IMG/VR virus record: IMGVR_UViG_3300025073_000050
Coordinates: 1 to 64,000 of that record
Direction: 5' to 3' (one strand)
Source: a virus
Length of the DNA stretch: 64,000 bases
In this document: one piece after another, positions 11,607 to 54,539 of the stretch
How the letters are laid out: each line of letters opens with the position of its first letter
How positions within the stretch are numbered: position 1 is the first letter of the stretch
The notes under the pieces: model-generated
Database searches by the model: none
What the model saw: only the letters and a program-made list of their open reading frames with translations
Told to the model about the DNA's origin: nothing
Made by a program: the position numbers and the translations under genes

Positions 11607-12221
11607 ATGGCAGAAAGTAATAATCAAAAAGTTTATCCACAAGTACGTATTGACAAAGAGTCTTTTTTATTTAATAACCGAATTTTATATTTGAAAGGAG
11701 AAATACAATCAGAAAACAGTAATATATTCGATGAAACCACGGATATTATTACCTCTCTTTTTATTTTAGATAGTATAAGTCATTCTACTATAACGCTTTA
11801 CATAGATTCTGCTGGCGGGGACGTTTATACGGGACTAGCGTTGTACGATGTAATAAGGTCACTTAAATCTCCAGTAGTAACCGTAGGAATGGGTTTAGTA
11901 GCATCGATAGCAGTCATTGTGTTTGTAGCCGGTGAAAAAAGGTATGTTTACCCAAATAGTAGAATCTTTATTCACGAGCCGTGGAGGTGGACATCTGAGC
12001 GAGAGGATGCTTCAAAACTAGAGGTAGAAGCTTGTGAAATAGGCGTTTTAAAAACTCGAATACAGGAAATACTTGTTGAACGAACTGGACAAAAACTAGA
12101 ACGAATTAAAAAAGACACTGACCGCAACAAATATTTTTCTAGTTTGGAGGCTAAAAAGTATGGGATTGTTCACGAAATTATAAGGGTAAAAAATGGAAAA
12201 CACGGAAAAAATGTTAAGTAA
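11607..12221 (+). CDS. ClpP-type (S14) serine protease (204 aa)
   Basis: It belongs to the ClpP fold with a visible triad: Ser100 in GLVASIAV, His123 in FIHEPW and Asp170 in IKKDTDRN, plus SAGGDVYTGLALYD (68-81) of the substrate groove. The length is that of ClpP subunits. In phages this family often serves as prohead maturation protease, but this gene is 28 kb from the capsid gene and a second protease candidate is fused to the scaffold at 39415. It could instead process the modular proteins that follow or retune host ClpP. The end overlaps the next gene by 29 nt. Confidence 0.8.
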   Translation: MAESNNQKVYPQVRIDKESFLFNNRILYLKGEIQSENSNIFDETTDIITSLFILDSISHSTITLYIDSAGGDVYTGLALYDVIRSLKSPVVTVGMGLVASIAVIVFVAGEKRYVYPNSRIFIHEPWRWTSEREDASKLEVEACEIGVLKTRIQEILVERTGQKLERIKKDTDRNKYFSSLEAKKYGIVHEIIRVKNGKHGKNVK

Positions 12222-20754: not shown

Positions 20755-20961
20755 ATGCTGATAATTAAGTGCGATAATTGTGGACGTGAAATTCCTGATT
20801 TTTGTTATCCTGTTAGATTTTATATAGTTAAATTTGATTTTTGTCACGAATGTTTTACTATAAATCTAGATAGTTTACTAAAAAATAGGGCAATAATGAA
20901 AGCAGAAAATAACCTACCAAAGATAAACAGTAAAAAACAAGGAAAGGAGGTATTCAATTGA
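20755..20961 (+). CDS. Small zinc-finger protein (68 aa)
   Basis: IKCDNCGREIPDFC and FCHECF give two CxxC pairs spaced as in a treble-clef or ribbon finger. The C-terminus is basic. It overlaps the next gene's TTG start. One of many tiny zinc proteins in this genome. Confidence 0.55.
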   Translation: MLIIKCDNCGREIPDFCYPVRFYIVKFDFCHECFTINLDSLLKNRAIMKAENNLPKINSKKQGKEVFN

Positions 20962-22752: not shown

Positions 22753-25344
22753 ATGCCTAAAGAATTTATAGAATGCGTAGATAGCGGCGGAAAGGTAAGA
22801 ACAGTATCAGGGCCAAATAAAGAACATGGATTAGGGAAAGGCGAATACGTGAAGTACTGCTATAAAGATGACAAGAGTTATAGAGGAGAAATCAAAATTA
22901 AAAAAGCAAAATTAAGTATAAATGAAATAAAAGAGATATGCCCAAATTGCGCAGAAAAAATGGAAAAGAAAGGAATGACAAAGTTGGCGTTGAATGAAGA
23001 AGATATAGATAAGGCGTTGGCCAAAGGTTTTATAAGTAAAGATGCCGCAAAAGGGTTACGGTTAGCGGTGAAGAGGAAAGGACAAGAAAGAAGAGAAAAG
23101 AAGGTAGCCACTGAAGATAGGTCTATAGATGACAACGAAGATATGATGGAAAGTACAGGGCATCCTCCAAAGCTTGTAAGTGAAGAGGGAAATAGACTGT
23201 ATGAAAGAATACTGGACTACCTAATAATGGCAGATGATCCAAGCTTTAACGTTATAGTGGGCTTTAGGAATAAAATAGAACGCTTAGACTATCCAGAGGA
23301 CAAAGCAGAACTAAAGAAGGAATTTGAGAAAGAGTTCGGTGGAGATCATACTAAAGGAACAACTGCTTGGGACTATTACAAAGAAAGAGATTCTGGCTAC
23401 TACAGAGAACGCGATGGAAAAAAAGTAGAAGGAATGGCTATACCAATAGGAGCAGATACGTATGGAATAACTATAGGGACGCAATTTCTTTTAAAAGGAG
23501 ATATTGGTGAAGAATTATATCAAAAACTAGCTGGATTAGCAGGAAGAAAGGATTCAGTAAATGTGCAACGAGGTAAAGGGTTTATAAGGATAGATGGAAT
23601 AGAACTGGCGCCCGAAGATTTTGCTGGCAGCAGTGTTTACTATCGTTTAGCTACTTATCTATCTGGTATAGTAGGTGGGTCAGAATTAGGGTATAAGGTG
23701 GATGCAGAAAAACTAAAAGTAGAAGGTTTTCGTGGTAAATCCATATTTGGTTTAAAAGTAGCTCAAGAAAAAAGTGATGGAGAATTCAAAGTAGGTGATA
23801 GAGTAATAGATGACGAAGGAGATAAAGGAACAATAACAACCACAGAAGGATATAATTTAGAAGAAGGGGAAGTATATGTAGAGTATGATGAAAAAGAGAA
23901 TCCAACACCTTACCCTGGATTTTTGGTTCATACTACCCATTTACAAAAGATAGGAAAAGTGGCACAACAACAAGAATCTGATTTTATAGAGAAAAGGAAA
24001 GAACCAAAAGAGGAAGTAGAACCTGAAGTCTTACTCAGAGGAATAGATACGCCTGAAGCTGCTAAACAATACCAACGAAAGAAAGAATACGGAAACTCAA
24101 AACTCGAAATGGATGAACTAAACCAAGGTAAGTTTAAGTTAGTAAGGAAAGCGCAATGGAAAAAATTCAAAGTTAGTAATAGCGTAAATGTTGGTGATGA
24201 AGTTAGGTTGAATGAAGGATTTAGTTATACAAGAAATTCCGAGCAATATGTACAATTAAGCTACCCTGAAAAAGCTACTGTAATAGGGATTAATGACGAT
24301 GGTACTGTTAATGTAACGATTAAATATAGCGGAGATATCGTTAAAAAAGTATCACTAGATGAACTAAATAGAGGCGAATGGTTTGGAGACGACAAAACAG
24401 CGCAAACCAAAGACGAAGAAGATGAAGTCTTAACTGACGAAGACATAAGAGGAATAATCGAACAATATGAAGCAAAAAAAAGAACAGAAGGACTAAGTGA
24501 AGATGAAGAAAAAGAATTAAAAATGTATAAAGAAGTTAAGAAAGAACAAGAACGATATGAAGAAGGGCAAGAACTAACTCCTGGAGAACCGCCTATAGCG
24601 CCTAAGTCAACTTTACCAAAAAGGTATAAGAAACCAACAGAGGCCCCAGAACAATTAAAAGACATCTCAGAGGACTTAGACTTAGTATCCTTGTTTACAG
24701 AGGCAGATAAACTAACTAAAGAAGTAACAAGAGTAGATGAACTAATAACAAATTTAACAGAAAAAATACAAGAAGAAGAAAAATATGAAGAAGTAAAAGA
24801 AAAGTTAGAAGGGGTTTGGAAAGAAATAAGGAAGAAAGTAGGTGACCAACCAGGAAGAGCAGCAACATTCAAAGATAGAGTATATGCTATAATGAACCAA
24901 ATTCGCAGGAGCTTTCATCCACCTTATATGAAAATAGCTGAACAACTAATAGAAGAATTCGGCGGAGAAGTAAAGGATTTACAAGAAAGAATGCAAAAAC
25001 GATATGAAATACTAAGGAAAACTAAACCAAAGTTGGTAAAAGTATTTACATTCTTTACAGCCCCAACAGAGCTTTATCGAAAGTTTAAAGGTAGTCTAAC
25101 TCTTGAAAGTCAACTAACAGCCCCAACTTTAGCTGAAGGCGTAGACTTACCCGCAGCACCAGTTAAAGAGGAAGAAGTAATGGACGAAGGAGAAGAAACT
25201 AAACAAAACTTGTTAAACGAGTTAGTAGGGTATAGTTATGACATTTTAGATGTAATGACTGGCGTGGAAGACGACTTTACCTTATTTGATTTTACTTTAA
25301 GTGAAATAGAGGATAGACTAGCAGAAACAACCAAAACAGAGTAA
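22753..25344 (+). CDS. Long modular lysine/glutamate-rich protein with SH3-like parts (863 aa)
   Basis: AAGGAGGATAGG precedes the ATG. Zinc ligands (YCYKD, CPNCAEKM) lie near the N-terminus. Two KOW/SH3-like segments follow (FKVGDRVIDDEGDKGTI near 355 and SVNVGDEVRLNEG near 475), each just after an Ala-Gln site (LKVAQEKS, VRKAQWKK), and KTAQTKDEE opens a long acidic coiled-coil region. The C-terminal part is helical. The layout suggests small domains linked by cleavable joints. Confidence 0.6.
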   Translation: MPKEFIECVDSGGKVRTVSGPNKEHGLGKGEYVKYCYKDDKSYRGEIKIKKAKLSINEIKEICPNCAEKMEKKGMTKLALNEEDIDKALAKGFISKDAAKGLRLAVKRKGQERREKKVATEDRSIDDNEDMMESTGHPPKLVSEEGNRLYERILDYLIMADDPSFNVIVGFRNKIERLDYPEDKAELKKEFEKEFGGDHTKGTTAWDYYKERDSGYYRERDGKKVEGMAIPIGADTYGITIGTQFLLKGDIGEELYQKLAGLAGRKDSVNVQRGKGFIRIDGIELAPEDFAGSSVYYRLATYLSGIVGGSELGYKVDAEKLKVEGFRGKSIFGLKVAQEKSDGEFKVGDRVIDDEGDKGTITTTEGYNLEEGEVYVEYDEKENPTPYPGFLVHTTHLQKIGKVAQQQESDFIEKRKEPKEEVEPEVLLRGIDTPEAAKQYQRKKEYGNSKLEMDELNQGKFKLVRKAQWKKFKVSNSVNVGDEVRLNEGFSYTRNSEQYVQLSYPEKATVIGINDDGTVNVTIKYSGDIVKKVSLDELNRGEWFGDDKTAQTKDEEDEVLTDEDIRGIIEQYEAKKRTEGLSEDEEKELKMYKEVKKEQERYEEGQELTPGEPPIAPKSTLPKRYKKPTEAPEQLKDISEDLDLVSLFTEADKLTKEVTRVDELITNLTEKIQEEEKYEEVKEKLEGVWKEIRKKVGDQPGRAATFKDRVYAIMNQIRRSFHPPYMKIAEQLIEEFGGEVKDLQERMQKRYEILRKTKPKLVKVFTFFTAPTELYRKFKGSLTLESQLTAPTLAEGVDLPAAPVKEEEVMDEGEETKQNLLNELVGYSYDILDVMTGVEDDFTLFDFTLSEIEDRLAETTKTE

Positions 25345-25442: not shown

Positions 25443-28289
25443 ATGGAAAAAAGAGTAATAGATAGCTGGATAGAAAATAAAGAAAGCAAGGGTATGAAGA
25501 GAGAGGGCCAATCTAGATTTAATCCTACAATAAGAAAACTAATAAGACAGGATATAAGAGAAATGGTAAATGAAGGTTCTAATGATGACGCTATTGTAAA
25601 GAGTTTAACTTATACCTATCCGGGATTAGGTGAATTTACTATAAAAAGGCTAATAAAAGAATTAAGAGGAGAAGGGCCAGATCAAGATTTAACTCCTTAT
25701 GCAAGTAAGCGAATAAGTCAAGGTGAGTGGAAATTAATAGAATCAAATATAGACTCTGGAGGCGGGTGGTTAATAGATCTCTATTACGACAAAGAAGGTA
25801 AACTCGTAAAAGAAGTCAAAACACGCGAAGATGATCCTACGAATCCAATCTTAACAAATTTTAAAGAAGTTATACTTAATATAGAAGAATTTGATCCTAG
25901 TCTTTATGGTAAGGCGGGGGAAAGTTTTTTGGAGAAAATACAGGGCGAAGAGAATAGCGATAGAAACACAAGCGCAAGTAAGAAACAAGCATTAACTTAT
26001 TTAGCGAAAGGCGAAACATATACAGGTGATAAATTAAATGAGTTAGGCTATGAAATTGGTGATCCAGTACCAAATACAGAAAGGGAGTACTACTTAGTTG
26101 ATAAAGAAGGGGATAATATTGGAATAGTATATGATACTGGAAACGATAATTATAGAATCGAAAAAAAGTTAAAAGCCAAGCTAGATTCTCAAGCTTCTTA
26201 CGCTAAACATTTAATAGACAAAGTAAATAGGGAAGCGTCAACGTTTGACAAACCAAACTGGAGTAACCCTGGTAGAAGACCTGGCGGTATTTATAGGAGC
26301 GCAATGAAGAAAAAAGGAGAAAAAGTAACTGGCGATAGAGGAGTAGGATTATATGAGGTAAGTTTAGGAAAGAGAAAGAAGGGGTTAGTAACAGATACCG
26401 ATGAAATAATATATGGAGCAACTATTACAAAACTTATAGATAACAAGTATGATTATAAGGTAGGAGATGAGGTTTTTGTTGTAAAAAATGGAGAAGGCGT
26501 TATTTGGGGAACTATAGACCCTTTTATAGAAGATGATAATGACGATAGTCCAAATGGTAAGGAGGCAAAGATGAATATCAAAGCGATGTTAACAGATATG
26601 TGGGACAAGGGAATGATAGGCGACAAAACCTTAGAAGTTTTAAAGGCAAGTAAGAACGAAAAACTAGTATTAGGTGAAATGCAACGCATAGCAAAGAAGA
26701 AAGGTTTTGATATAAAGGTAGTAGGAAAGAATAGTGAAGCAAGTAACACTGACGGACAAGTAAGCACTAAAGAGCGCCATGGTTATCCAGATGGAGATAA
26801 AGATGAAACAAATAAAGGCCCAGATGTAGGCGGAACAAGCGAACGGTTACCTGGCGCAAAGGAACCAAAGAAAGAAGGGCCAAGTGCAACTGGTAACGAA
26901 AGAAGAATGCCTGGTGTAGCCGAACCAAAGAAAGAACCATGGGATGGCTGGAAGAAAAAATATGACTTAAGAGAAAACGATATAGTAGATAGTCCAACTC
27001 CAGCAAGTTCAGGCGGGACAGACAAACGTTTACCCGGAGTAAAAGAGAAAGAGTTTACTCCTAAAGGCCCATACCCGGGTACACATTACGCGCAAAAAAG
27101 CCAATGGGTTAGTGTTAATATACCATTTACAAGAAGTGTTGGCGAGGATGTACTCATTAATATAGAAGAGGCCTTAGAGGAAAAGGGAATAACCTTTGAT
27201 ACAGGTACTGATTTTAAAAGTAGGGATTGGGAATTGGACTTTAGTTTAAAAGGCGCAACACCGCCCGAAGTTATGAAAATTTTAAAAGATGAAGGTATAA
27301 AATTTAGTGCAACACCAGTAAAGAAGGAAGGAATAAAGAAAGTAAAAGCTGATACAGAAGAGTTCGAGATATTTTACGATGACCTGATATCTGAAACTCA
27401 AGCAAGGTTTTTAGCTTTTCAAGATGTAACTGATTCCGAAGACTTAGGTATTGGTGCAATAGCAATAGTTCAAAGAGAAGTAGAAGAATTAGGTGAAGGC
27501 CCTGAAGAAGAAAAATACGAAGGCGGCCCAAGAGAGTCTTTGAAGAAAGAAGGGCAGAAAGGACAACATCGTACTCCTCAAGAGTTAATGAAAGAAAAAG
27601 TAGAAAGAGACCGAAAAATAGAAGGAATGCCTCATGAACCAAAGTTTGATCCAAGTAAACAAGAAAACTTAGGTGAGCCAAGAGTAAAAGAACAAGCACA
27701 TGGAAAAACAACTGATAGCTTAGGAACAGTGGGAGAAGTAAACCCAGACGCTGGGATAAACGATGTAACTAGTACTACTCCAAGTCCTCTAGGCTATCCA
27801 GAGAGTCAAACAAGTCTAAGCAAAAGTTTGAGAGGTTTCTTTACAGGAGTAGAAGGAGAAGTTAAAGAAGGCCAACTAGAAGACTTCAGTTTAAAAGGAG
27901 AGAATGAACCAAGGTTTGAATGGAGTGGAATACCGGGAGAGAGTAACCAAGAGCCAAAAGTAACCCCAGCAGCTCTTAGTACTCAAGAAAGTACAAAGGT
28001 ACCCGGAATAGGTAAAGGTGAAGATAACCAACCTCCAAAAAGTGCCTTAGCAGTTAAGTGTAAAGCTTGCAAAGAAGAAATGGTTTTATCGGAAAATGAT
28101 GCAAAAGTATGGAGACAAGAAGGAAAAACAATATGCAAATGTGGTAACCTTATTGAAGCTGCATACGATATGAAAATAGATGAAAGCTTATTCTCAGGCG
28201 TACCAAAAGGAAGTGAAGAAAGGGCTTTAACAGGAAAGAAAAGTAAAAAGGTAAGGAAACCACAAGTCAATTGGGAGATTAAGTACTAA
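25443..28289 (+). CDS. Very long modular protein with ERLPG repeats and zinc ribbon (948 aa)
   Basis: The N-terminal tag VIDSWIENKESKGMKREGQ ends in the EGQ form of the motif; further sites are KRISQGEW, HYAQKSQW and KKEGQKGQHR. Around 460-540 three copies of a T/N-x-R-L/M-PG-A/V unit followed by KEPKKE occur in a Pro/Lys-rich linker. A zinc ribbon (VKCKACKEEM...ICKCGN) is near residue 875. AATGGAGG precedes the ATG. No catalytic motif. It is probably a virion internal or scaffold-like polyprotein. Confidence 0.6.
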   Translation: MEKRVIDSWIENKESKGMKREGQSRFNPTIRKLIRQDIREMVNEGSNDDAIVKSLTYTYPGLGEFTIKRLIKELRGEGPDQDLTPYASKRISQGEWKLIESNIDSGGGWLIDLYYDKEGKLVKEVKTREDDPTNPILTNFKEVILNIEEFDPSLYGKAGESFLEKIQGEENSDRNTSASKKQALTYLAKGETYTGDKLNELGYEIGDPVPNTEREYYLVDKEGDNIGIVYDTGNDNYRIEKKLKAKLDSQASYAKHLIDKVNREASTFDKPNWSNPGRRPGGIYRSAMKKKGEKVTGDRGVGLYEVSLGKRKKGLVTDTDEIIYGATITKLIDNKYDYKVGDEVFVVKNGEGVIWGTIDPFIEDDNDDSPNGKEAKMNIKAMLTDMWDKGMIGDKTLEVLKASKNEKLVLGEMQRIAKKKGFDIKVVGKNSEASNTDGQVSTKERHGYPDGDKDETNKGPDVGGTSERLPGAKEPKKEGPSATGNERRMPGVAEPKKEPWDGWKKKYDLRENDIVDSPTPASSGGTDKRLPGVKEKEFTPKGPYPGTHYAQKSQWVSVNIPFTRSVGEDVLINIEEALEEKGITFDTGTDFKSRDWELDFSLKGATPPEVMKILKDEGIKFSATPVKKEGIKKVKADTEEFEIFYDDLISETQARFLAFQDVTDSEDLGIGAIAIVQREVEELGEGPEEEKYEGGPRESLKKEGQKGQHRTPQELMKEKVERDRKIEGMPHEPKFDPSKQENLGEPRVKEQAHGKTTDSLGTVGEVNPDAGINDVTSTTPSPLGYPESQTSLSKSLRGFFTGVEGEVKEGQLEDFSLKGENEPRFEWSGIPGESNQEPKVTPAALSTQESTKVPGIGKGEDNQPPKSALAVKCKACKEEMVLSENDAKVWRQEGKTICKCGNLIEAAYDMKIDESLFSGVPKGSEERALTGKKSKKVRKPQVNWEIKY

Positions 28290-28301: not shown

Positions 28302-30419
28302 ATGCAAAACTTTACAATAAAAGTAAAAGAGAACTGGATTGACAGACTCTTCGGTATGAAAAGAGTAGCTCAAGATGAAGAAGATAAACTAACATTAGAA
28401 AATACTCTTGTGACTATTGATGAGATATTTAGTGATGCGGGGGAATATATTGTCCCTTGGGCGGAAATTAAAATGGTGTTAGAACAAGCATTAAATGATG
28501 GGGTTTCCGCTAGTGTCCTTGTTGACTCTTTAAAGATAAGTAGCTACAGTCCAGAAGAGATACGCAAAATGGAGAAGTATATTTTTTCTGTAAATAAAAG
28601 GAAAGGGCAAATAACCATAGAAGAACCTTTACCAGCAATCCAAGAAGAAGTAAAGATAGCTGAAAGTGAAGAAGCACATGATTACGACAAAGAGTATAAA
28701 GATAAGTTTTTAAAGGATACGGTGCCTCAAAAAAGTAAGGACAAGGGTGAAGATCATGACTACAAAGGCCCTATAGAAGTAATGCTAGAGAAAAGTCCAG
28801 AACCTTTAGATACACAAAAAGATAGAGAGAAAGAGTTAAACGCAATGTGTGGCAAGCCAAAAAAGAAGAAAAAGAAAGCTCAAAATTGGAATGACGGAGT
28901 TTTTGGAGTGAAAGGAGAAGGGCAACTAAAGTATAAATTAGGGTTGAACGAAGGCGATTTTATACAGTGGGTTGCAGGAGTTCCAGGAATCCCTCAAGAT
29001 GAACTTTCTGAAATTACTGTAACTGTTAGATATGAAAATGGATACTGGAATTTATATATTAATGAAAATGATGTCCCCTTACAAACATTCCAGTTTGAAA
29101 ATAAGCCAGATACGATACAAGCAGCAGAAGACTTTATGAAGCTACATCAAACCTATCCAATAAAAAGAGATAGAATTGCCCAGATAGAAGATTCACCTTT
29201 TGATCAAGATGTAACTAAATTAAAACAAATCCCTATCGACGTATTAGCTCATAAATTAGGAATAACGTATAAACTAGCGAGATTGGTATATATGGCAATA
29301 GGAACCATGACACAAAATGAGTTGGATGATGCCGGAGCCAGATATAAAAGAAGATTGAAAGGACAAAGCGCAATAGATAAAAGTGATTTAGACGGAGGTT
29401 TACCCATAGACGAAGACTGTCCTTACTGTAGTGGAGAATGGGATGAAAATACAAAACAAGAATACTATGATATGGGTTCGGTAGAATGTCCACATTGTGG
29501 GGAACTGGTTGTAGAAAGAAACAGAAAAGGACAACTCTCAACAGAACAACGAATTATTAATTGGTTGAACACTAACTTAGAAGATGAAGGCGTAAACGTT
29601 TGGGGTGATGGTAGTGAGAGAACAGTAACTTATGACCCCAAAAAACATCTTTTTGTAGAAGATGTTTACAGTAGAGGTTTAGAAGGAGAAGGAACAACGA
29701 TGTATACTCCTGAAGAGTATTTTGAATACTATAAAGAAGATATAGAAGAAGAAGATTCTGACGGATTAACAGCAAAAAGAAAAGCGCAGAAAGGTTTAAA
29801 AGTCTACAACGAAAGAGGAACACCTAGTGAAATAGAAGACTCTATTGACAAAGGTATAGACGTTGGAACCTATAGAACAACGGGTAGAAAAGCTCAAGAA
29901 GAGGTGAACCTTACGACGCCACCTTTAGCAAATGAAATAGTAGATGAAATACTAAGTGAACTAAAAGAACAACTTAATGCTAACGCTGATGCTTTAAATT
30001 CCTTAGAAGTTCGTAAGTATCTATTGAAAAAAGTTAGAACATTAGCTCAAGGCCCGAGTAGAAAAGCTCAACTCAGTGAAACCGACCCAATGCAAATGTC
30101 AACTGGAGCACCAACAAGCGAAATAGAAAAAATAAAAATGACAAGAAAGGAAGTAACTGAACCAATAAATGTTATAATGACCCCAAGCATAGAACGAAGT
30201 AAAGGCGCTGGAACTCCAATAGACCCAACCTACTTAGCAGAACAAATAGTAAGAGGATTACGGTATAGTCATTACCATACCGCACAGGAAGGGTTTAACC
30301 ATATAATCAGGGCCACTAAAGACATAACAAAGGAACAGGTTGGAGAGTTAAAAGAACTAATGAGTCAGTTAGGCTACAGCGTAGAAGAACAAAAAGAAGG
30401 AATAGTAAAAACAGGATAA
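28302..30419 (+). CDS. Modular tagged protein with the densest RK-A/G-Q sites (705 aa)
   Basis: The N-terminal tag is NWIDRLFGMKRVAQ. Seven or more further sites occur: KRKGQITI, KKKAQNWN, DRIAQIED, NRKGQLST, KRKAQKGL, GRKAQEEV and SRKAQLSE. They separate short domains, one with a zinc ribbon (CPYCSGEW...CPHCGELV) and one acidic beta-rich domain. Codons for the motif vary (GGA, GCT, GCG; CAA, CAG), so it is kept at the protein level. I infer a polyprotein processed during capsid maturation. Confidence 0.6.
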   Translation: MQNFTIKVKENWIDRLFGMKRVAQDEEDKLTLENTLVTIDEIFSDAGEYIVPWAEIKMVLEQALNDGVSASVLVDSLKISSYSPEEIRKMEKYIFSVNKRKGQITIEEPLPAIQEEVKIAESEEAHDYDKEYKDKFLKDTVPQKSKDKGEDHDYKGPIEVMLEKSPEPLDTQKDREKELNAMCGKPKKKKKKAQNWNDGVFGVKGEGQLKYKLGLNEGDFIQWVAGVPGIPQDELSEITVTVRYENGYWNLYINENDVPLQTFQFENKPDTIQAAEDFMKLHQTYPIKRDRIAQIEDSPFDQDVTKLKQIPIDVLAHKLGITYKLARLVYMAIGTMTQNELDDAGARYKRRLKGQSAIDKSDLDGGLPIDEDCPYCSGEWDENTKQEYYDMGSVECPHCGELVVERNRKGQLSTEQRIINWLNTNLEDEGVNVWGDGSERTVTYDPKKHLFVEDVYSRGLEGEGTTMYTPEEYFEYYKEDIEEEDSDGLTAKRKAQKGLKVYNERGTPSEIEDSIDKGIDVGTYRTTGRKAQEEVNLTTPPLANEIVDEILSELKEQLNANADALNSLEVRKYLLKKVRTLAQGPSRKAQLSETDPMQMSTGAPTSEIEKIKMTRKEVTEPINVIMTPSIERSKGAGTPIDPTYLAEQIVRGLRYSHYHTAQEGFNHIIRATKDITKEQVGELKELMSQLGYSVEEQKEGIVKTG

Positions 30420-33150: not shown

Positions 33151-35709
33151 ATGTTTAATGTTATAAGTAGAGTCAAAAATGCAATAGTAGATTTCTTAAC
33201 TAAAACTGATACTGAGGACAAGCCCCCTTTAAAAGTGAAAGCACAAACTCCTGCACCTATCCCCGCTGTTCAACCAGGAGTAACTCCAACTGGAACTACT
33301 GCTACTACTCCAATGCCTAGTACTCCTTGTCCAGCAGGTAAGATGTGGGTTGAAGACGGTACAGGTGGATGGGTATGTGCTGGCCCTGGAGAAGTAACAA
33401 AGAAAGCGCTTATTCACAAATACGACCCCAACGAACTAAAAATGTTTGGAGAAATAGACCAAATAAAAGACTTAGTAAGAAACAAATACCAAATAGGACT
33501 AAACATAGAGGAAGCAAAAGAGTTACTAGCTTGGCTTAAAGACCAAGAATTCACCCAAGACTTTGCAAATAGTGATACAGATTACTTCTACGCTATTACA
33601 TCATGGCTAAAGAGTAAAGGTTGGACAGTACAAGGAACAAAAAGAACGGCTGACATTACTTCTATACTTGAACCTTTACTACCAGAAATAGAAAAACAAA
33701 TAAACACCAAAGTACCTCTAGAAGAAATAAAAAATTTTATCATAGAAAAAGTAGGCGAAAGAAAGATAAACGAAGAAGACAAGAGAAAAATTAAATATAA
33801 TGTAGAAAAACTCCAAACACCAGATAACCTCTTAAAGTACCTATACAACTCAATACTAAAATATGAAGGACATGGAGTTATTAGTACAAAAAATCTTATA
33901 TCTATTAAGATAGGACAAAAAGTTAAGATAATAAAAGACCTTATTTATTCTCCAAAATATGGCGGTATTTTACCAAAAGAGGAGTATGCGGGGTCTCAAT
34001 ATTGGGAAGAGGATAATTCTGGTAAAAAAAGTAGCATGTATTTAAAGAAAGGAACTATTATGACAGCATTAGAAGATGGTTCTTTAGACCAAGTTGAATT
34101 TGAAGGGGGTGGGCATAATACATCCCTAGAGAAAAATTGGTTTACCCGTTTAAATGAAGGACATGGCGTAGTATCAAAACAAATAAAAGAACAAGGAAGA
34201 CAAATAGGCTTAAAAGAAATAGTAAAAGACAAATATAAAGTTGAACTAAACGATAAAGAGGTAGAAAGTCTATTCAACTTCCTCGAAGACCAAGATGTTC
34301 AAAGTACTGACGAATTTTACTTTAACGAGATAGAAAACTGGCTTAAAAGGAAAGGTAGGAAAGGCCAGTTATCTTCTTATATAACTGAAGGTATAGAAGC
34401 TGGGGCAGAAGAAACATTGAATAACGATAATGTCTTTGATTGGACAATAGAAACCTTTAACGCAAATGATATCTGCAAGCGAACAGGTTTACCAGATGAT
34501 GCTGACTTGTTAGAACACAAAGAAGAAATAAGTCAATCCTTTTTACCTAGTTATGAAGAACAAATCGAGAATAGTGGATTTGATTGGTTATTTGAGGACA
34601 ACGAAGACATATATGATATAACTGATGGAAACTCAATTGATACGTGTGAGATAGATGAACTTGATGAGGTTCCTAGTGGTACAACTGCTGGTAGGAAAGG
34701 ACAAAGCGAGAATTTAATTGGAAGACAGTTTACAAGGGATGGAAAAACATACACTGTAAAACATACAAATAGCGGTTTAAGACTAGTTACTATACAAGAA
34801 GGAACTACTGGAGAACTAAAAACTATAAATTATATAACTCTTTTACATGGCTATAATGAAGTTAGATCAAGTAGGGCTCAAATGGAAAAAACTGTTCCAG
34901 CACCTGTAACTCCAGTCAATCCAGTTGAACCCTTAAAACCAGGAGAGATACCTGTAATCCTCGAAGACGAAGTAACTGACGAAAAAGCAAAACCAAAAGG
35001 TTTAAATCCAGAAGAAGAAGAGGTAGAAAAGAAAACTGATCTTGGCAGAGAAGAAAAGGTAAAAACAGATGTGGGAGAATTAAAAGAAAATATAATTAAC
35101 TTAGCAAAAAGTGTTTATAGTATTGAAATGTCTGAGCAACAAGTCACAGATTTACTAGGCAAGATAATGGGATTTTTAAGTGAAAAAATAAGTGAAGTAA
35201 CATTGGGTAGAGTTCAAGACATAGTAGGAGATTTATTACCAAGGAAGGCAAAGTTAAGTAATAGGAAAGGGCAAAATAAATATACCTACAAACCTGAAAA
35301 TGCTGCAAAAGAAGCAGCGGATATAGCAGCTGGCCAAATTCTGGAAGCTGATGTAGATAACGTAGAAATGAAAAGAAAAATGATACAGCAAGCTATAGAT
35401 GATTTTAGTGATTTCGGTTATGAAAATTGGAACATAGCTGAGGAACAAATAGGAAAAGTAACAAGAGAAATGGAAAAATTACTAAGGAAGGCAAAGTTAA
35501 GTAATAGGAAAGGGCAAAATAAATATACCTACAAACCTGAAAATGCTGCAAAAGAAGCAGCGGATATAGCAGCTGGCCAACTAAGGAAAATGATACAGCA
35601 AGCTATAGATGATTTTAGCGATTTCGGTTATGAAAATTGGAACATACCTTATGAACAAATAGGAAAAGTAACAAGAGAAATGGAAAAATTACTAAGGACA
35701 TATTTGTAA
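33151..35709 (+). CDS. Modular repeat protein with tag and RKGQ joints (852 aa)
   Basis: The N-terminal tag (ISRVKNAIVDFLTK then KVKAQ) leads into a Pro/Thr-rich linker. Two copies of a helical domain (IDQIKDLVRNKYQIGLNIEE near 100 and LKEIVKDKYKVELNDKEVES near 355) and a third diverged copy (ENIINLAKSVYSIEMSEQQV) alternate with GRKGQLSS, GRKGQSEN, SRAQMEK and KLSNRKGQ sites. The last 150 residues are a tandem duplication (see 35241). I infer a virion polyprotein of repeated cargo domains. Confidence 0.65.
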   Translation: MFNVISRVKNAIVDFLTKTDTEDKPPLKVKAQTPAPIPAVQPGVTPTGTTATTPMPSTPCPAGKMWVEDGTGGWVCAGPGEVTKKALIHKYDPNELKMFGEIDQIKDLVRNKYQIGLNIEEAKELLAWLKDQEFTQDFANSDTDYFYAITSWLKSKGWTVQGTKRTADITSILEPLLPEIEKQINTKVPLEEIKNFIIEKVGERKINEEDKRKIKYNVEKLQTPDNLLKYLYNSILKYEGHGVISTKNLISIKIGQKVKIIKDLIYSPKYGGILPKEEYAGSQYWEEDNSGKKSSMYLKKGTIMTALEDGSLDQVEFEGGGHNTSLEKNWFTRLNEGHGVVSKQIKEQGRQIGLKEIVKDKYKVELNDKEVESLFNFLEDQDVQSTDEFYFNEIENWLKRKGRKGQLSSYITEGIEAGAEETLNNDNVFDWTIETFNANDICKRTGLPDDADLLEHKEEISQSFLPSYEEQIENSGFDWLFEDNEDIYDITDGNSIDTCEIDELDEVPSGTTAGRKGQSENLIGRQFTRDGKTYTVKHTNSGLRLVTIQEGTTGELKTINYITLLHGYNEVRSSRAQMEKTVPAPVTPVNPVEPLKPGEIPVILEDEVTDEKAKPKGLNPEEEEVEKKTDLGREEKVKTDVGELKENIINLAKSVYSIEMSEQQVTDLLGKIMGFLSEKISEVTLGRVQDIVGDLLPRKAKLSNRKGQNKYTYKPENAAKEAADIAAGQILEADVDNVEMKRKMIQQAIDDFSDFGYENWNIAEEQIGKVTREMEKLLRKAKLSNRKGQNKYTYKPENAAKEAADIAAGQLRKMIQQAIDDFSDFGYENWNIPYEQIGKVTREMEKLLRTYL
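35241..35699 (+). repeat. In-frame tandem duplication
   Basis: The unit at 35241-35483 is repeated at 35484-35699. The first 97 bases are identical, then copy 2 lacks about 30 bases and differs at a few positions. Each copy starts at the KLSNRKGQ motif and ends at the next LRKA, so the repeat unit equals one motif-bounded domain. Confidence 0.9.
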
Positions 35710-39127: not shown

Positions 39128-39415
39128 ATGCGTTATACGTGTACAAGTTGTAATGTGGATGTAGAGTTAGGAAAAGATAATGAGAAAAGATGCCCTAGAT
39201 GCGGTTATAAAAGTTATATGAAAGAAGCAAAAGAAAAAGTAGTGGCAAAAGTAATATCTAAAAAAGATATAGTGTATACAGCAGTCCAATGTGAGAACTG
39301 CGCTGTTGTCTGGGATAAAAGTTTATCAGAAAAGTGCCCAGTATGCGGAAAGATAGGCGGTAAATTTATAAATAAAAAAGAAGCATTGAAAAAAGAGGAG
39401 TTAGTAACAGTATAA
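39128..39415 (+). CDS. Double zinc-ribbon protein (95 aa)
   Basis: Two rubredoxin-like ribbons are present: CTSCNVDV...CPRCGYKS and CENCAVVW...CPVCGKIGG. The linker is basic. It lies just before the prohead protease, with which its stop overlaps by one base. A nucleic-acid- or assembly-related role is plausible. Confidence 0.6.
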   Translation: MRYTCTSCNVDVELGKDNEKRCPRCGYKSYMKEAKEKVVAKVISKKDIVYTAVQCENCAVVWDKSLSEKCPVCGKIGGKFINKKEALKKEELVTV

Positions 39416-42400
39416 TGTTTTACCGAACAGCACAACTGAAAATTAAGGATAAAGATTTATATTTATGTGGTAAAGACGAAACTAAGGTTTGTAACTGTTG
39501 CGGAACCCAGTCTTGTAGTTTTAGACAAGCCGCAAAACGGTTAATAGCTGTTGACCCAAATTTCCTTTATGTTATTGTAAGCGGATTACACGGCGACTCT
39601 CCTAATGAGAACGGAGATTATTTTGAATGGGATAAAAATCATTTCGATTGGGAGAAAGAAGTATTCGGGTATGAAGGAGAGCTTTTAAACAAACGAAACG
39701 GCGCATACGTTTATGAGACTTGGCGGGGAAAACCAAATTTGACCAACCACGATGAAAAGTCAGTCGTAGGCCATATAGAAGATGTGTTTCATATACTCGA
39801 AGAAAAAAGTATAGATAAACTATTAGCCGTTAATCGTAGAACACAACCTTTATTAGTAGGGGATATAGAGAAAGGACTTATTAATGAAGTTAGTATGGGA
39901 TGCCTAGTAGCATCGTCAATCTGTAGTAAGTGCAAACATATTGCGCATGATGAGCAAGAATGGTGCTTTTTACCCGGCACTAAAGTTTTAATGGCGGATT
40001 ATACCTTAAAAAATATTGAAACTGTTTGTGAAGGGGAGCATGTTATTACACATAAAGGAAATAAGAAAAAGGTACTTAAACCAATGTCTCGTAGTTATGA
40101 AGGCGAGATACTAGTAATTACTAGTGTAGGAGATAGTGGTAAGTATCCTTTAAGATTGACTCCTAACCATGAAATTTTTACATTACAAAGTAATGGAAGT
40201 ATTGGAAGTGGGACGGTAGGATTTATTCTGGCGAAAGAAATACAAATAAATAATGAATTACTTGTTCCAGTAGTAAGGGAACAAAAAACCAATTTAGAAG
40301 TAACAGAAGAGGAATCGAGGTTATTGGGTTATTATGTTAGTGAGGGAAGTATTGGAAATAAAAATTATAAGACTACTAGACAGCTATCTTTTTCTTTTAA
40401 TAAATCTGAAGCGGCATACGTAACTGAAGTCGCTAGTTTATGTACTAAGTTATTTAATCGGCAAATTTGCGTATACGAAAACCCAAAATCATCTGGAGTA
40501 GAAATACGTACTAGTGTTCCTTTGAATGTCGCTTCTAAGCTCCAATATATAGGAGGAGAATACGCAAAACAGAAACAACTTGTAGGCGAATTTGTAGAGC
40601 AACCCCTTGATATTGTTAAAGCATTTTTAGATACCTACAATAATGGGGATGGTTGGAAAAATGCGAAGGGGTTTAGTTTTGAAACAGCTTCAGAACAATT
40701 AGCTTATCAGTTAGTAATATTAGGAAGACGCTTTGGAGGTAGTGTATATTGGAATAAATTACCTAATACACATTCTCCTACTAATCCTGTTAAAGACCTT
40801 ACCATTTATAGGGTAAATATAAAACCCCTTATTAATGTGGTACGATATTTATCTTACGATGGAATTGGTTATTTTAAGAGATTAGTAAGAGATATCAAAT
40901 CTGAAAGGTATTCCGGATTAGTATACAACTTGGAAGTAGAGGATGACAATTCTTATATTGCAAATGATGTAGCAGTTCATAATTGTGATCACTTAAAGTA
41001 TCATAAGGGAAGGTTAGATGATGAAGGAAGCAAAATTTACGAAATAAATAAGGGTGTAGTAGGACAAGAATGTTCTTGGATAACAATGGGTCAGGCCGCT
41101 GATCCAAAAGCAACAAAGAAAAAGATAGTAGCAGAAAAGGAGGAAGAGATGAGCACATTTAAAATAAACCCAATTGCTGGTAAACGGTCCGTAGAGGCAG
41201 GAGTCTCAAGTGAAACAAGTGTTCCTGCTGGGGGTATAAAAAACGCAATTGCTTATGAATCGGATATGAGCAGGTTTACAGGTATGAAAAAAGAAAAAGG
41301 GATGGCTGGAGTATCCCCTGAAATGCAAACTAAATTAGCTTTATTAGCAAAAATCCCTGTAGATAAATTAATTGGATTAGTAGATGATAAAGATGTAAAA
41401 GAGATTTTAGCTCAAACAATGACATCTTCTACAGTAGCAGAAGAAAAGGAAACCATAGCAACTGAAATAGAAAAATTAGAAAAAGAGATTGTAAAACCCG
41501 TAGTTGCAGAAAGTTTAGGGAATGTCAAGGAAGAAATAGCTAAAAGGAAAGAAATTTTAGCGGGTTTATACAAAAAAGAAGAAGCAATGAAAGGAACAAA
41601 TGCTGTTAGACGTATATCAGCAGAAATTATTAGATTAGAAGATGAAGTAACAGAATTAGAAAAGCAAGAACCAGCAGTTGCTACTAAGGGGAGAACCATG
41701 AATTCCTTTAGAGATGTAGATGTAAGTAAAATAGATGAATTTAAGAGGTTGTATGATTGGGATCAGTTTGATGATTTATGGCAAAAAGCTGTTGAAAAAG
41801 CGTTAACTATTATTGATGAAAAAGATTACAAAGTTTTTCAAGAAGTATTACAAGATATTCCTACTTCAGCTGCTGAAGATATTACTACCCCCAATGCTTT
41901 AGCACGCTATCTTTTTAACTATGTAGAACGATATAAGAGGACACCTCTCCTCGAGGAGGCAAGCATGGATATAAATGCATTAGCAAAAATGATAAAAGAA
42001 ACAGTAAGGGCTGAAATGAAATCCTTAAAGGCCCAATTTGGTGAAGAGAAAGATAAGGATAAAGATTTAACAGAATTGCCGGAGCCTGCTTTAGAAAAGC
42101 CGAAGGTAGATAAAAAGGAAATTCCTAAAGAGACTAAAGACGAACCTTCAGATGAATCTTTAGAATTAGAAGACAAAAAAGAGGAAAAACCAGCAACTCC
42201 TAAGAAAGAGTTACAGAAAGATTTAGAAGAGGGGGCTAATATTGAATCCGGTAAGGCTAAAGAAATAGTAACTGACATAGAAAAAATAGTAAAGGACGAA
42301 GTAAAGAAAACTAAACTTTCTAAACCAGAAGAGAAGGAAGTAGTAGAGATGGAACCTAAAGAAGAAACTGAAGAGCCTTTAATGGATGAAGATTTGGACT

Positions 42401-43566
42401 TAAACTTCATAGAAGGAAAAAGAAAGTCAGAGTCAAAGTGGATAGTAAGAGCAAAAAAGAAACCAGTATTTTCAGTTAACCTAAAACAAGCGTTTGATAC
42501 AGATAGTTGGAGTAAAAACTGGAAGTTCTTTAGTTCAAAAGAGTATGGAAAAGAGTTGCGGGAAGCAATAAAGGAGAAAGGTATTAAGCGAACAATAGTT
42601 GAAGAGTTTCCAGCAGGGGTAACTAGATTAAGTCAAGTTGAACTTCCCCCAGAAACGCCAACTACTCAACCAGTTGGACAGGCCCCTCAAGCTGTTTTAC
42701 CGCCACAGTCTCAGCAACAGATTTTGGAAGGGCCAAAAGCAAAAGGGTCATTCGTGAAATTCTTAACAAATATGACAGCTCCGTTGATTGCATTAGATAC
42801 TCCAGTATTTGATGTAGATAGTATTACGACAGAGTTAACCTCAACTTTTGGTGATGAAGCAGCAACTAATCAGTTTAAAGGTGAACTAGAAGCAAAGGTT
42901 CAAAGCTTAAAAGAACCAAAAGAGGGAGTGCCGGCTCAACCAATAACTACTGCAAAGAGTATTAAAGCGCTTAAGAAAGCGTTATTTGAAGAGTTCCAAA
43001 AGGTAAAGCCAACTATAAGTGAAGATGAAGTATGGTTAATTTATAGTGCTGGAGACTCTGAATTTAAGAGAGAACTTTTAAAAGGTGGAGAAAGAATAAC
43101 GGCTCTAAAGGGGGAACTCAATAAAGAAATTAGTGCTCATAAGAGAACTCAAGCATCTTTAGAAAACCTTTTAGAGGAGAGAAGCCTTAGATTTAAAGCT
43201 CGTAAAGCAGTTGAGTTAGTAGATAGAGAAATTATTGTCGGGTTAGTTGATACAAAAGAAACTTTAATGGCAAAAGGCGAAAAAGATGAAAGAGTAGCAA
43301 CAAAGACAGCAAAAGAAATCTACGAGCATGAAGTAGATGAGTTAGTAGCTATGGACGATAAAACGTTTAATAGTTTTACTAAGAAAGTAGAAGCAATGTT
43401 AAAAGAAACAAAAATGACAAAAAGAGCTTCAATAGGAAAAGTAATAGGGTCATTAGTAGATGCAACAACTGATGATGAACCTAGAGCAAGTATAGAAGGA
43501 AGCAAAAGTACAACTCTTGAGACCGTATGGTCAAGGCCACCTATAGTAAATGAGAATGAGAAATAA
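39415..43566 (+). CDS. Prohead protease-scaffold fusion interrupted by an intein (1383 aa precursor)
   Basis: The N-terminal 200 extein residues look like an H/S prohead protease of the HK97/herpes assemblin type: NHDEKSVVGHIEDV with His112, and LINEVSMGC with Ser160, then a zinc cluster CSKCKHIAHDEQEW with CDHLKYH. The rest is a long acidic, Lys/Glu-rich, coiled-coil scaffold. The N-terminus MFYRTAQ ends in the Ala-Gln motif, suggesting self-cleavage. The spliced product is 1043 residues. Placement between portal and capsid genes fits. A strong internal start at 41149 suggests that the scaffold is also made alone. Confidence 0.75.
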   Translation: MFYRTAQLKIKDKDLYLCGKDETKVCNCCGTQSCSFRQAAKRLIAVDPNFLYVIVSGLHGDSPNENGDYFEWDKNHFDWEKEVFGYEGELLNKRNGAYVYETWRGKPNLTNHDEKSVVGHIEDVFHILEEKSIDKLLAVNRRTQPLLVGDIEKGLINEVSMGCLVASSICSKCKHIAHDEQEWCFLPGTKVLMADYTLKNIETVCEGEHVITHKGNKKKVLKPMSRSYEGEILVITSVGDSGKYPLRLTPNHEIFTLQSNGSIGSGTVGFILAKEIQINNELLVPVVREQKTNLEVTEEESRLLGYYVSEGSIGNKNYKTTRQLSFSFNKSEAAYVTEVASLCTKLFNRQICVYENPKSSGVEIRTSVPLNVASKLQYIGGEYAKQKQLVGEFVEQPLDIVKAFLDTYNNGDGWKNAKGFSFETASEQLAYQLVILGRRFGGSVYWNKLPNTHSPTNPVKDLTIYRVNIKPLINVVRYLSYDGIGYFKRLVRDIKSERYSGLVYNLEVEDDNSYIANDVAVHNCDHLKYHKGRLDDEGSKIYEINKGVVGQECSWITMGQAADPKATKKKIVAEKEEEMSTFKINPIAGKRSVEAGVSSETSVPAGGIKNAIAYESDMSRFTGMKKEKGMAGVSPEMQTKLALLAKIPVDKLIGLVDDKDVKEILAQTMTSSTVAEEKETIATEIEKLEKEIVKPVVAESLGNVKEEIAKRKEILAGLYKKEEAMKGTNAVRRISAEIIRLEDEVTELEKQEPAVATKGRTMNSFRDVDVSKIDEFKRLYDWDQFDDLWQKAVEKALTIIDEKDYKVFQEVLQDIPTSAAEDITTPNALARYLFNYVERYKRTPLLEEASMDINALAKMIKETVRAEMKSLKAQFGEEKDKDKDLTELPEPALEKPKVDKKEIPKETKDEPSDESLELEDKKEEKPATPKKELQKDLEEGANIESGKAKEIVTDIEKIVKDEVKKTKLSKPEEKEVVEMEPKEETEEPLMDEDLDLNFIEGKRKSESKWIVRAKKKPVFSVNLKQAFDTDSWSKNWKFFSSKEYGKELREAIKEKGIKRTIVEEFPAGVTRLSQVELPPETPTTQPVGQAPQAVLPPQSQQQILEGPKAKGSFVKFLTNMTAPLIALDTPVFDVDSITTELTSTFGDEAATNQFKGELEAKVQSLKEPKEGVPAQPITTAKSIKALKKALFEEFQKVKPTISEDEVWLIYSAGDSEFKRELLKGGERITALKGELNKEISAHKRTQASLENLLEERSLRFKARKAVELVDREIIVGLVDTKETLMAKGEKDERVATKTAKEIYEHEVDELVAMDDKTFNSFTKKVEAMLKETKMTKRASIGKVIGSLVDATTDDEPRASIEGSKSTTLETVWSRPPIVNENEK
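39964..40983 (+). mobile_element. Intein in the prohead protease (340 aa)
   Basis: It begins at Cys184 (CFLPGTKVLM, block A), has block B with PLRLTPNHEIF and ends in LVYNLEVEDDNSYIANDVAV followed by HN, with Cys as +1 residue. LLGYYVSEGSIG and VKAFLDTYNNGDG are LAGLIDADG-type helices; the second has lost one acidic position, so nuclease activity is uncertain. It is inserted exactly before a Cys that should bind zinc in the mature protease, so the zinc site forms only after splicing. Confidence 0.9.
41149..43566 (+). CDS. Nested scaffold protein from an internal start (805 aa)
   Basis: An in-frame ATG at 41149 has AAGGAGG at 41137-41143, as good as any gene start in the window, and directly follows the protease domain. 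The product would be the free scaffold, as for lambda Nu3 inside gene C. A further in-frame ATG at 41965 also has GAGGAGG (41953-41959) inside a small palindrome. The protein is acidic and coiled-coil, suited to a core removed during maturation. Confidence 0.6.
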   Translation: MSTFKINPIAGKRSVEAGVSSETSVPAGGIKNAIAYESDMSRFTGMKKEKGMAGVSPEMQTKLALLAKIPVDKLIGLVDDKDVKEILAQTMTSSTVAEEKETIATEIEKLEKEIVKPVVAESLGNVKEEIAKRKEILAGLYKKEEAMKGTNAVRRISAEIIRLEDEVTELEKQEPAVATKGRTMNSFRDVDVSKIDEFKRLYDWDQFDDLWQKAVEKALTIIDEKDYKVFQEVLQDIPTSAAEDITTPNALARYLFNYVERYKRTPLLEEASMDINALAKMIKETVRAEMKSLKAQFGEEKDKDKDLTELPEPALEKPKVDKKEIPKETKDEPSDESLELEDKKEEKPATPKKELQKDLEEGANIESGKAKEIVTDIEKIVKDEVKKTKLSKPEEKEVVEMEPKEETEEPLMDEDLDLNFIEGKRKSESKWIVRAKKKPVFSVNLKQAFDTDSWSKNWKFFSSKEYGKELREAIKEKGIKRTIVEEFPAGVTRLSQVELPPETPTTQPVGQAPQAVLPPQSQQQILEGPKAKGSFVKFLTNMTAPLIALDTPVFDVDSITTELTSTFGDEAATNQFKGELEAKVQSLKEPKEGVPAQPITTAKSIKALKKALFEEFQKVKPTISEDEVWLIYSAGDSEFKRELLKGGERITALKGELNKEISAHKRTQASLENLLEERSLRFKARKAVELVDREIIVGLVDTKETLMAKGEKDERVATKTAKEIYEHEVDELVAMDDKTFNSFTKKVEAMLKETKMTKRASIGKVIGSLVDATTDDEPRASIEGSKSTTLETVWSRPPIVNENEK

Positions 43567-44690: not shown

Positions 44691-44766
44691 AATATAAGAG
44701 AGAAAGGCCTATTCTTTAGCCAAAAAGTAAAGAAAAGTAAAAAGTTAAATATAGGAGGTGAAATGT

Positions 44767-50270: not shown

Positions 50271-50350
50271 GTAGAGTATTGGAGATATCCTTTTATGGGT
50301 GAATTAATAAACTTATTTTGGAAGAAAGAAGCACAATTAGGGAAGGTTAT
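50190..50350 (+). repeat. 161-bp direct repeat, copy 1
   Basis: It is identical to 50820-50980. It covers the last 27 codons of one gene, the intergenic ribosome site, and the first 18 codons of the next, including the complete tag MGELINLFWKKEAQLGKV. Perfect identity implies a recent duplication. Confidence 0.95.
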
Positions 50351-50810
50351 TAATCCTAAAGACTTCCAGTCTGGGAATGAAGAAGCAGATAAGCATAATT
50401 TATTGTTTCATTTATCAGTGTTAGATAGCATACTATTAGAGTATGATCCTGAAGATCCTCCAATCAACTCAAAAGAAGAGATAGTTACAGAAATAGTTGA
50501 AGCAATGCAGTACTATAAAGAACGCTTTAACGAAGTTCCAGAATATGAGGGATTTACAACATCGATTACTGTTAAAACAAAAGAAGATATGGAAAAAGTA
50601 TTTCCTAAAATAGAAGAATCTTTTTTAGATATAGTAGAAGAAGGAAATACTGCTCAAGTATCCTTAAGTGCTATAACTACATATCTTGGTGGTAGAATAC
50701 AAGAAGGAAAGACTTTTACTAATTCTAAAGGAAAAGTCTTTAAAGTGCTTAAGGTAGATTCTAAAATTCAAAAAGCAACAGTAAAAAGAATAGCCCAACG
50801 GAGTCAATAA
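50295..50810 (+). CDS. Tagged small virion-type protein (171 aa)
   Basis: The N-terminus MGELINLFWKKEAQ is the clearest example of the tag shared by several proteins: a short amphipathic segment, two Lys and a terminal Ala-Gln. The body is an acidic alpha/beta protein; near the C-terminus VKRIAQRSQ repeats the motif. If the tag is removed, the mature protein starts at Leu15. The body family is unknown. Confidence 0.6.
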   Translation: MGELINLFWKKEAQLGKVINPKDFQSGNEEADKHNLLFHLSVLDSILLEYDPEDPPINSKEEIVTEIVEAMQYYKERFNEVPEYEGFTTSITVKTKEDMEKVFPKIEESFLDIVEEGNTAQVSLSAITTYLGGRIQEGKTFTNSKGKVFKVLKVDSKIQKATVKRIAQRSQ

Positions 50811-50900: not shown

Positions 50901-50980
50901 GTAGAGTATTGGAGATATCCTTTTATGGGTGAATTAATAAACTTATTTTGGAAGAAAGAAGCACAATTAGGGAAGGTTAT
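50820..50980 (+). repeat. 161-bp direct repeat, copy 2
   Basis: It is identical to 50190-50350 at a distance of 630 bp. It supplies ribosome site, start codon and tag to a new gene body beginning at 50981. Confidence 0.95.
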
Positions 50981-51284
50981 AGATTTTGTTGGCCCGGCAC
51001 AAGATGTACCTAAAATTCTGTTAGACTACGATGTTGTAAGCGTTAAGGGTTTCCCTGCTAGCGGAACATTTAAAGCTGTAGAACAAGCAGAAAACTGGTT
51101 AGTGGAGAATGGTTATGGCCTTGGACCTATGCAGAGGGATGCCCCTAGGGGTATTGCCAAAGACGTTGATTATATTGCTAAATGGAGAAATATCTCTCCA
51201 GACGAGTATTCTAGATTAGACGGCGTTATGTTACCAGCACCTGAATTTCGAGAGGGCGGGGCTACAATACTATTTTTTAGGTAA
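50925..51284 (+). CDS. Tagged protein with a different body (119 aa)
   Basis: It has the same 18-residue start as the gene at 50295 because of the direct repeat, but the rest is unrelated: a small alpha/beta domain (DVVSVKGFPASGTFKAVEQA, ENWLVENGYGLGPMQ). This is direct evidence that the tag can be moved onto new proteins. Body function unknown. Confidence 0.6.
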   Translation: MGELINLFWKKEAQLGKVIDFVGPAQDVPKILLDYDVVSVKGFPASGTFKAVEQAENWLVENGYGLGPMQRDAPRGIAKDVDYIAKWRNISPDEYSRLDGVMLPAPEFREGGATILFFR

Positions 51285-53066: not shown

Positions 53067-53327
53067 ATGTCTTTAATAAATTTATTTTGGAAGAAAGAAG
53101 GTCAATTAGAAGAATTTAAAGTAGGGAGCAAAATAGTAGTAATAGAAGATAACGAATTTGATCCAAATTCTCCTAGTTCTGGAGATACTGGAAATGTGGT
53201 AGAGATAGATCCTATGGATGTGTTGATTAAAGTAAAATTTGATAGCTGGAAAAGTAAGAGCGGAAGTCCTTTTTGGCACATTAGTCCAAGTAGAATAAGA
53301 AAAATTTATACTAATGGAAGACATTAA
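53067..53327 (+). CDS. Tagged SH3-like small protein (86 aa)
   Basis: The tag MSLINLFWKKEGQ is followed by a barrel-like domain (FKVGSKIVVIEDNEFDPN, GDTGNVVEIDPMDVLIKVKF) with KOW/SH3 character similar to parts of the protein at 22753. AAGGAG precedes the ATG. The Gly-Gln variant of the cut site is used. It is probably packaged in the head. Confidence 0.6.
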   Translation: MSLINLFWKKEGQLEEFKVGSKIVVIEDNEFDPNSPSSGDTGNVVEIDPMDVLIKVKFDSWKSKSGSPFWHISPSRIRKIYTNGRH

Positions 53328-54275: not shown

Positions 54276-54287
54276 AGGAGAAAAGTG

Positions 54288-54539
54288 ATGTCTAACATAG
54301 TAGATTTATTTTGGAAAAAGAAGGCGCAAGAAGACTTTGAAGAAATAGAAGGCCCAAAACGAGAACGAAGGTTTCGAGCTTCAATTTACGTAGACGTATG
54401 GGTAATTGAAACAGACAATATAGAAAATGATAGAGAAGTAGCAAGAAAGGAAGTAGAAGAATACCAAAAAGGGATACCTAATTCGTATATTGGAGATATA
54501 GGCTGGTTCAAAGGAATGACGTTAGATAGAGAAATATGA
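54288..54539 (+). CDS. Tagged small protein (83 aa)
   Basis: ATG 54288 is chosen over GTG 54285 because AAAGGAG is then 7 nt away. It starts MSNIVDLFWKKKAQ and continues with a small alpha/beta domain (FRASIYVDVWVIETDN). It is one of the five closest tag examples. Function of the body unknown. Confidence 0.6.
   Translation: MSNIVDLFWKKKAQEDFEEIEGPKRERRFRASIYVDVWVIETDNIENDREVARKEVEEYQKGIPNSYIGDIGWFKGMTLDREI

Follow-up and report, generated by a model that had tools for sequence, protein, structure and literature searches.

In phage T4, in SPN3US and in phiKZ and its relatives, the prohead proteases process core proteins and cut after Glu, e.g. in the form A-X-E (PMC5694885, PMC10052503), and the T4 enzyme removes short targeting segments (PMC5694885). 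In herpesviruses, assemblin, of the same fold class, is fused within pUL26 to a C-terminal scaffold, relies on a Ser-His-His triad and cleaves after Ala, at Ala|Ser or Ala|Thr bonds, as in the pseudorabies virus sites YLQA-T and VQA-S, which were predicted from homologues (PMC4498786). Besides, a divergent clade of SH peptidases is mentioned for the group 3 jumbo phages, phage G among them (Iyer et al., 2021, PMC7824862), and is probably the same as the clade of phage G gp19. This latter protein is about 300 aa long, without a long fused tail or an intein, and prefers [KR]xA followed by Ser. In the fusions of mycobacteriophages and other actinophages (PHROG 2774, e.g. ScoobyDoobyDoo gp90), a protease domain with a CSxCGN ribbon continues into a long C-terminal extension, its gene lying just upstream of the capsid gene, and the motif is of the [KR]TA type, then Ser or Ala.

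The gene considered here lies in a stretch of 64,000 nucleotides (hereafter the window) taken from a virus record of 65,952 bases (IMG/VR IMGVR_UViG_3300025073_000050). It is likely that it encodes an SH-type head-maturation protease fused to a probable scaffold, in a large tailed phage that is a remote relative of Bacillus phage G, and that this enzyme cuts at [KR]-x-[Ala/Gly]-Gln. Its protease domain is homologous to that of gp19 (33% over 66% of the query, E 5e-6) with the same catalytic and zinc-ribbon residues, but Gln here takes the place of the Ser preferred in phage G. The fusion recalls that of the actinophages, though the two tails are without sequence similarity, and differs from T4, where the scaffold is a separate gene. 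Regarding gene order, portal, protease and capsid follow one another as in phage G and ScoobyDoobyDoo. The herpesvirus protease carries no zinc ribbon and is not known to require a basic residue at P3.

Organization of the protease gene

The protease is encoded in a single open frame of 1383 codons, or 1043 aa once spliced, and the identical 1383-aa protein is found on two further IMG/VR contigs (127 and 56 kb). In the translated frame, His112 falls within NHDEKSVVGHIEDV (aa 111-124), Ser160 within LINEVSMGC (aa 155-163) and MFYRTAQ forms the N-terminus, all three exactly where the initial annotation of this DNA had placed them. His112 and Ser160 are invariant in protease alignments of 38-40 sequences; in the set of 40, invariance extends to M161, G162 and two Cys of the zinc ribbon, and an ExS...AD block comes close to it. 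In the window protease, the GK..H...S-M-G core and the CxxC...C.H ribbon are both present when the intein is disregarded. As for the third catalytic residue, E552 and D563 both lie inside the nearly invariant block, and either is a candidate judging from conservation; the alignment to T4 gp21 ends before that block. The features of the locus are collected in Table 1.

Table 1. Features of the head-protein locus; coordinates refer to the window, amino acids to the unspliced protease ORF.
Feature	Coordinates	Strand	Basis
ClpP-like protease, rival enzyme	11607..12221	+	PHROG 94, Pfam CLP_protease
Candidate substrate, N-terminal LSNKKGQ and internal LSNRIAQ	12193..14004	+	Motif scan
Candidate substrate, 2 sites	20958..22667	+	Motif scan
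Candidate substrate, 5 sites vs 0.61 expected	22753..25344	+	Motif scan
Candidate substrate, 3 sites	25443..28289	+	Motif scan
Candidate substrate, 8 sites vs 0.53 expected	28302..30419	+	Motif scan
Candidate substrate, 5 sites vs 0.60 expected	33151..35709	+	Motif scan
Protease fused to probable scaffold, whole ORF	39415..43566	+	One 1383-aa reading frame
N-extein, SH protease domain to zinc ribbon (aa 1-183)	39415..39963	+	PHROG 18299; 38-sequence alignment
Putative N-terminal site RTAQ (aa 4-7, in MFYRTAQ)	39424..39435	+	Relatives: MFHKTAR, MFTKFAS, MFTKIAV
His112, predicted catalytic	39748..39750	+	Invariant; hhalign onto T4 gp21 residue 85
Ser160, predicted catalytic nucleophile	39892..39894	+	Invariant; hhalign onto T4 gp21 residue 140
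Zinc-ribbon pair 1, C170-x-x-C173	39922..39933	+	Invariant in 40 sequences; weak Pfam zinc-ribbon matches in relatives
Intein with LAGLIDADG-type region (aa 184-523, 340 aa)	39964..40983	+	Sequence; Pfam matches just below cut-off
C-extein end of protease domain (C524, H526, E552-C-S554, D563)	40984..41112	+	ExS...AD block of relatives; placed by eye
C-terminal tail of about 820 aa, probable scaffold	41113..43563	+	Composition and position
Small protein, targeting-like N-terminus GELINLFWKKEAQ	50295..50810	+	
Small protein, targeting-like N-terminus GELINLFWKKEAQ	50925..51284	+	
Small protein, targeting-like N-terminus SLINLFWKKEGQ	53067..53327	+	
Small protein, targeting-like N-terminus SNIVDLFWKKKAQ	54285..54539	+	

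Family and fold of the protease domain

Among the SH-type prohead proteases, the domain is placed in a diverged clade whose members carry a zinc ribbon as an insertion and which comprises phage G gp19 as well as actinophage and jumbo-phage relatives. A match to PHROG 18299, a family of head maturation proteases, covers aa 91-180 (E 1.4e-7), and tblastn against named phages retrieves phage G gp19, jumbo phages including NCTB, PaBG, Lu11 and PhiXhv-15, mycobacteriophages and Eggerthella phage LE2-3. With a profile built from four sequences, 63 viral loci were recovered, contigs of the same phage included, and a genome scan gave one match, on a 156,949-base contig from a Streptomyces assembly. 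Fusion proteins with a length of some 600-2200 aa are frequent among these relatives; the members resembling that of phage G measure about 300 aa. No Pfam family spans the zinc-ribbon protease clade. PHROG 2774 is labelled as of unknown function, yet every one of the 40 aligned protease sequences matches it, so that its annotation could be improved.

The initial annotation had proposed an HK97/assemblin-type fold. Searching PDB sequences with the protease profile returned nothing relevant, and no similarity to herpesvirus proteases was detectable in this way. A fold search with a model of the window's own N-extein (183 aa, the final strands missing; pLDDT 62) returned nothing either. For a relative, L010 (33% identical to the window protein), the AlphaFold model is mostly above pLDDT 85 in the core and below 50 in the 53 N-terminal residues. 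Its eight closest matches in the PDB are T4 gp21, the best among solved structures, and the proteases of HCMV, EBV, KSHV and HSV-1; the best of them reaches E 0.004 and probability 0.95, these scores being modest, with a TM of about 0.3 by query length. Among predicted viral structures, the same model matches phage G gp19 and the proteases of phiRSL1 and PaBG, together with other prohead proteases. In a single hhalign comparison with T4 gp21 (E 0.0009), to which sequence similarity is only distant, H112 aligns with residue 85 and S160 with residue 140, which we take to be the catalytic pair of gp21. The proposed fold therefore stands, its support being drawn from a relative of the window protein.

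C-terminal tail and N-terminal site

The tail that follows the protease in frame is long, Cys-free and highly charged (D/E 20%, K/R 17%), and no relatives of it were detectable among the sequences fetched. Composition and gene position suggest that it is probably a scaffold through which the core takes up the protease, on the model of herpesvirus pUL26. The earlier description of a long acidic scaffold thus holds for the length and the charge but overstates the acidity, the net charge being only -22.

The same annotation had read the Ala-Gln at the N-terminus as a means of self-release. The site itself is present as RTAQ, and [KR]xA recurs at this place in relatives, namely MFHKTAR in Rctr197k, MFTKFAS in L039 and MFTKIAV in L017. 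In a set of ten dissimilar protease ORFs of the clade, no pair of which matches above 55% identity over 100 residues, six have [KR]xA at the N-terminus, where 1.9 would be expected. Self-release is rejected, since a cut there would remove about six residues and could not free a scaffold located at the other end of the protein. Judging from this recurrence, RTAQ would rather be a conserved N-terminal processing site. Besides, [KR]x[AG]Q is absent from the whole tail, so that no such release site lies between protease and scaffold; KMTKRA|S, about 45 residues from the C-terminal end, fits only the general motif of the clade.

Glutamine sites in the head-type proteins

In an unsupervised motif scan of the whole window, with ORFs called mechanically and expectations taken from shuffled sequences (expected counts varying slightly between runs), [KR].AQ ranks top. 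It occurs 25 times against 4.2 expected, and [KR].GQ 16 times against 6.3. The excess is concentrated in 12 head-type proteins, picked partly for holding sites, with 19 [KR].AQ against 1.7 expected and 14 [KR].GQ against 2.6, counts reached by 0 of 1000 shuffles; the remaining proteins of the window hold 6 against 2.6 and 2 against 3.6, respectively. A cleaner control is provided by 92 kb of the same phage outside the window, where the observed numbers are those expected (5 vs 5.0 for [KR].AQ and 6 vs 7.5 for [KR].GQ). The corresponding Glu form is not enriched in the window ([KR].AE, 10 vs 12.9), nor is the Gln motif in the protease ORF alone (1 site vs 0.73). The Gln sites are thus real, being enriched in head-type proteins and hardly so in the other proteins of the window. 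Upstream of the Gln, basic residues cluster, and no strong preference is seen for the residue after it. When intermediate relatives were sought with the protein encoded at 28302 and with the portal, nothing beyond copies of the same phage came up.

It could be argued that these repeats reflect the composition or the structure of linker-rich core proteins, for instance as DNA-binding basic patches, rather than cleavage sites, a reading with which the clustering of basic residues upstream of the Gln would agree and which the prediction of the cut sites from sequence leaves room for. We consider it improbable, because the motif closes short N-terminal segments shared by small proteins, and because relatives keep the basic-x-Ala core and differ at the next residue, control motifs remaining flat. 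The segments concerned, with (I/V)xLFWKK(E/K)(A/G)Q near the N-terminus of all four small proteins, resemble the short targeting segments trimmed by the T4 protease. Under cleavage as the preferred reading, candidate internal head proteins and targeting segments can be named for large-headed phages. In the protein encoded at 33151-35709, a segment of about 80 aa starting from KAKLSNRKGQNKYTYKPENAAKEAADIAAGQ is tandemly repeated at the C-terminus, a Gln site opening each copy.

Code of the clade and choice of the enzyme

In the ten dissimilar protease ORFs, 48 instances of [KR].A[SQAT] were counted where 20.1 would be expected, and control motifs in which either position is given a different residue are flat. 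The Gln form is not enriched in this set; Ala is the common residue and the next one varies, [KR]xA being followed by Ser, Ala or others. In LR745208, an uncultured 485-kb phage with a family member near the portal, [KR].AS is the top motif of the head locus (25 vs 7.0), and two other regions of the same genome have 17 against 16.2. The signal is weaker in phage G, with 294 [KR].A against 240.6 in the first 130 kb and 448 against 428.4 in the next 270 kb, sites being found in both protease and portal. As six-frame ORFs are partly spurious in GC-rich relatives, the clade statistics were made to rest on the protease ORFs and LR745208.

The distribution of this code bears on which enzyme would make the cuts. 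A second, triad-complete ClpP-like protease had been pointed out at 11607, and it is real (Pfam CLP_protease, 2.1e-45), with Ser, His and Asp at the usual ClpP positions by eye. It might cut at the Gln sites, the SH protease being inactive or doing something else: it has a match in PHROG 94 (2e-39), whose members are head maturation proteases, and its gene adjoins a core-like gene carrying two sites. The strength of the Pfam match and the distance of 23 kb between the gene and the portal make a ClpP-like role possible. In all, 17 records were searched for the ClpP family, one of them the same phage on a contig starting downstream of that gene; among the 16 others, the gene occurs in phage G only, the 158-165 kb mycobacteriophage genomes lacking it, yet the clade carries the [KR]xA code. 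Since the code occurs without ClpP, the SH protease is favoured and cleavage by the ClpP-like enzyme appears very unlikely. The initial proposal of the SH protease as the Gln-site enzyme therefore keeps the best candidate, the motif being found in the proteases and head loci of relatives nearly all devoid of ClpP, but not the release it had attached to it nor, probably, the bond.

Probable position of the scissile bond

The sites had been thought to be cut after Gln. If the SH protease is the enzyme, a cut between Ala/Gly (P1) and Gln (P1') is preferred with reasonable confidence, as Ala is shared by relatives while the next residue varies, and as the herpesvirus proteases cut after Ala. A cut after Gln, with Ala/Gly at P2, is kept as the main rival because the Gln is so rigid in the window, resembling in this the Glu of the sites cut by T4, SPN3US and phiKZ relatives (PMC5694885, PMC10052503); such invariance would also fit P1, and so would the lack of a strong preference at the residue behind. 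Set against the Ala shared across the clade, the variable residue behind it and the habits of the same-fold herpesvirus proteases, it has a real but clearly smaller chance than the Ala|Gln bond. Capsid-protein cleavage was considered as a test and proved uninformative, the PDB chain of phage G gp27 aligning from near the predicted N-terminus and the start of the window capsid protein resembling gp27. The literature searched gave no mature N-termini for any clade member.

More broadly and tentatively, at somewhat less than even chances, the broad zinc-ribbon SH clade, with its phage G-like, actinophage and huge uncultured-phage members, may use a basic-x-Ala code that parallels the herpesvirus Ala|Ser rather than the Glu of T4 and phiKZ. 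Dozens of sites, spread over many proteins, would have switched here to Gln at P1', the specificity of enzyme and substrates having shifted in concert. If so, cleavage sites could be predicted from sequence across a clade of unstudied prohead proteases, the P1' switch would offer a case for how a protease evolves along with its many substrates, and the shared Ala would add to the known link in fold between phage and herpesvirus capsid proteases.

In the course of head assembly, the spliced protease would join the prohead core through its C-terminal region and, once the shell is complete, would be activated within it and act on proteins of the core and of the head interior. The cuts would fall at [KR]-x-[Ala/Gly]-Gln, the bond most likely being the one that precedes the Gln. 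It would strip the short N-terminal targeting segments and chop the linker-rich core proteins, the one encoded at 28302 being cut at up to eight sites.

Self-splicing elements in the head genes

The intein presupposed when the structure of the intein-free protein was first proposed as a check is indeed present, with the borders CFLPGTKV...VAVHN|C (Pfam Intein_splicing E 1.4e-7, slightly short of the cut-off). It is inserted immediately ahead of C524, which aligns with the conserved third zinc-ribbon Cys of relatives, and its splicing would have to precede the formation of the ribbon and so, probably, of the active enzyme. When the window ORF was aligned with the intein left in, the intein fell on the C-terminal strands of the relatives, and this alignment was discarded.

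Self-splicing elements interrupt the portal, protease and capsid genes alike. In the portal gene (35986-38697), too, there is an intein with a LAGLIDADG region. The major capsid gene (44758-49465), judged from its homology with phage G gp27, appears in six pieces, namely 44776-44934, 45528-45701, 46761-46994, 48130-48273, about 48547-48597 and about 49394-49465, the last two being weak matches. Rfam group I introns are found in the capsid region at 47874-48075 and 48304-48484, with weaker ones at 49184-49365 and 44967-45123, and the ORFs within the gaps of the gene include two that are LAGLIDADG-like by appearance. In Eggerthella phage LE2-3, the protease (L009, 5980-9093) has its intein elsewhere, right behind the catalytic SMGLN and before a Cys.
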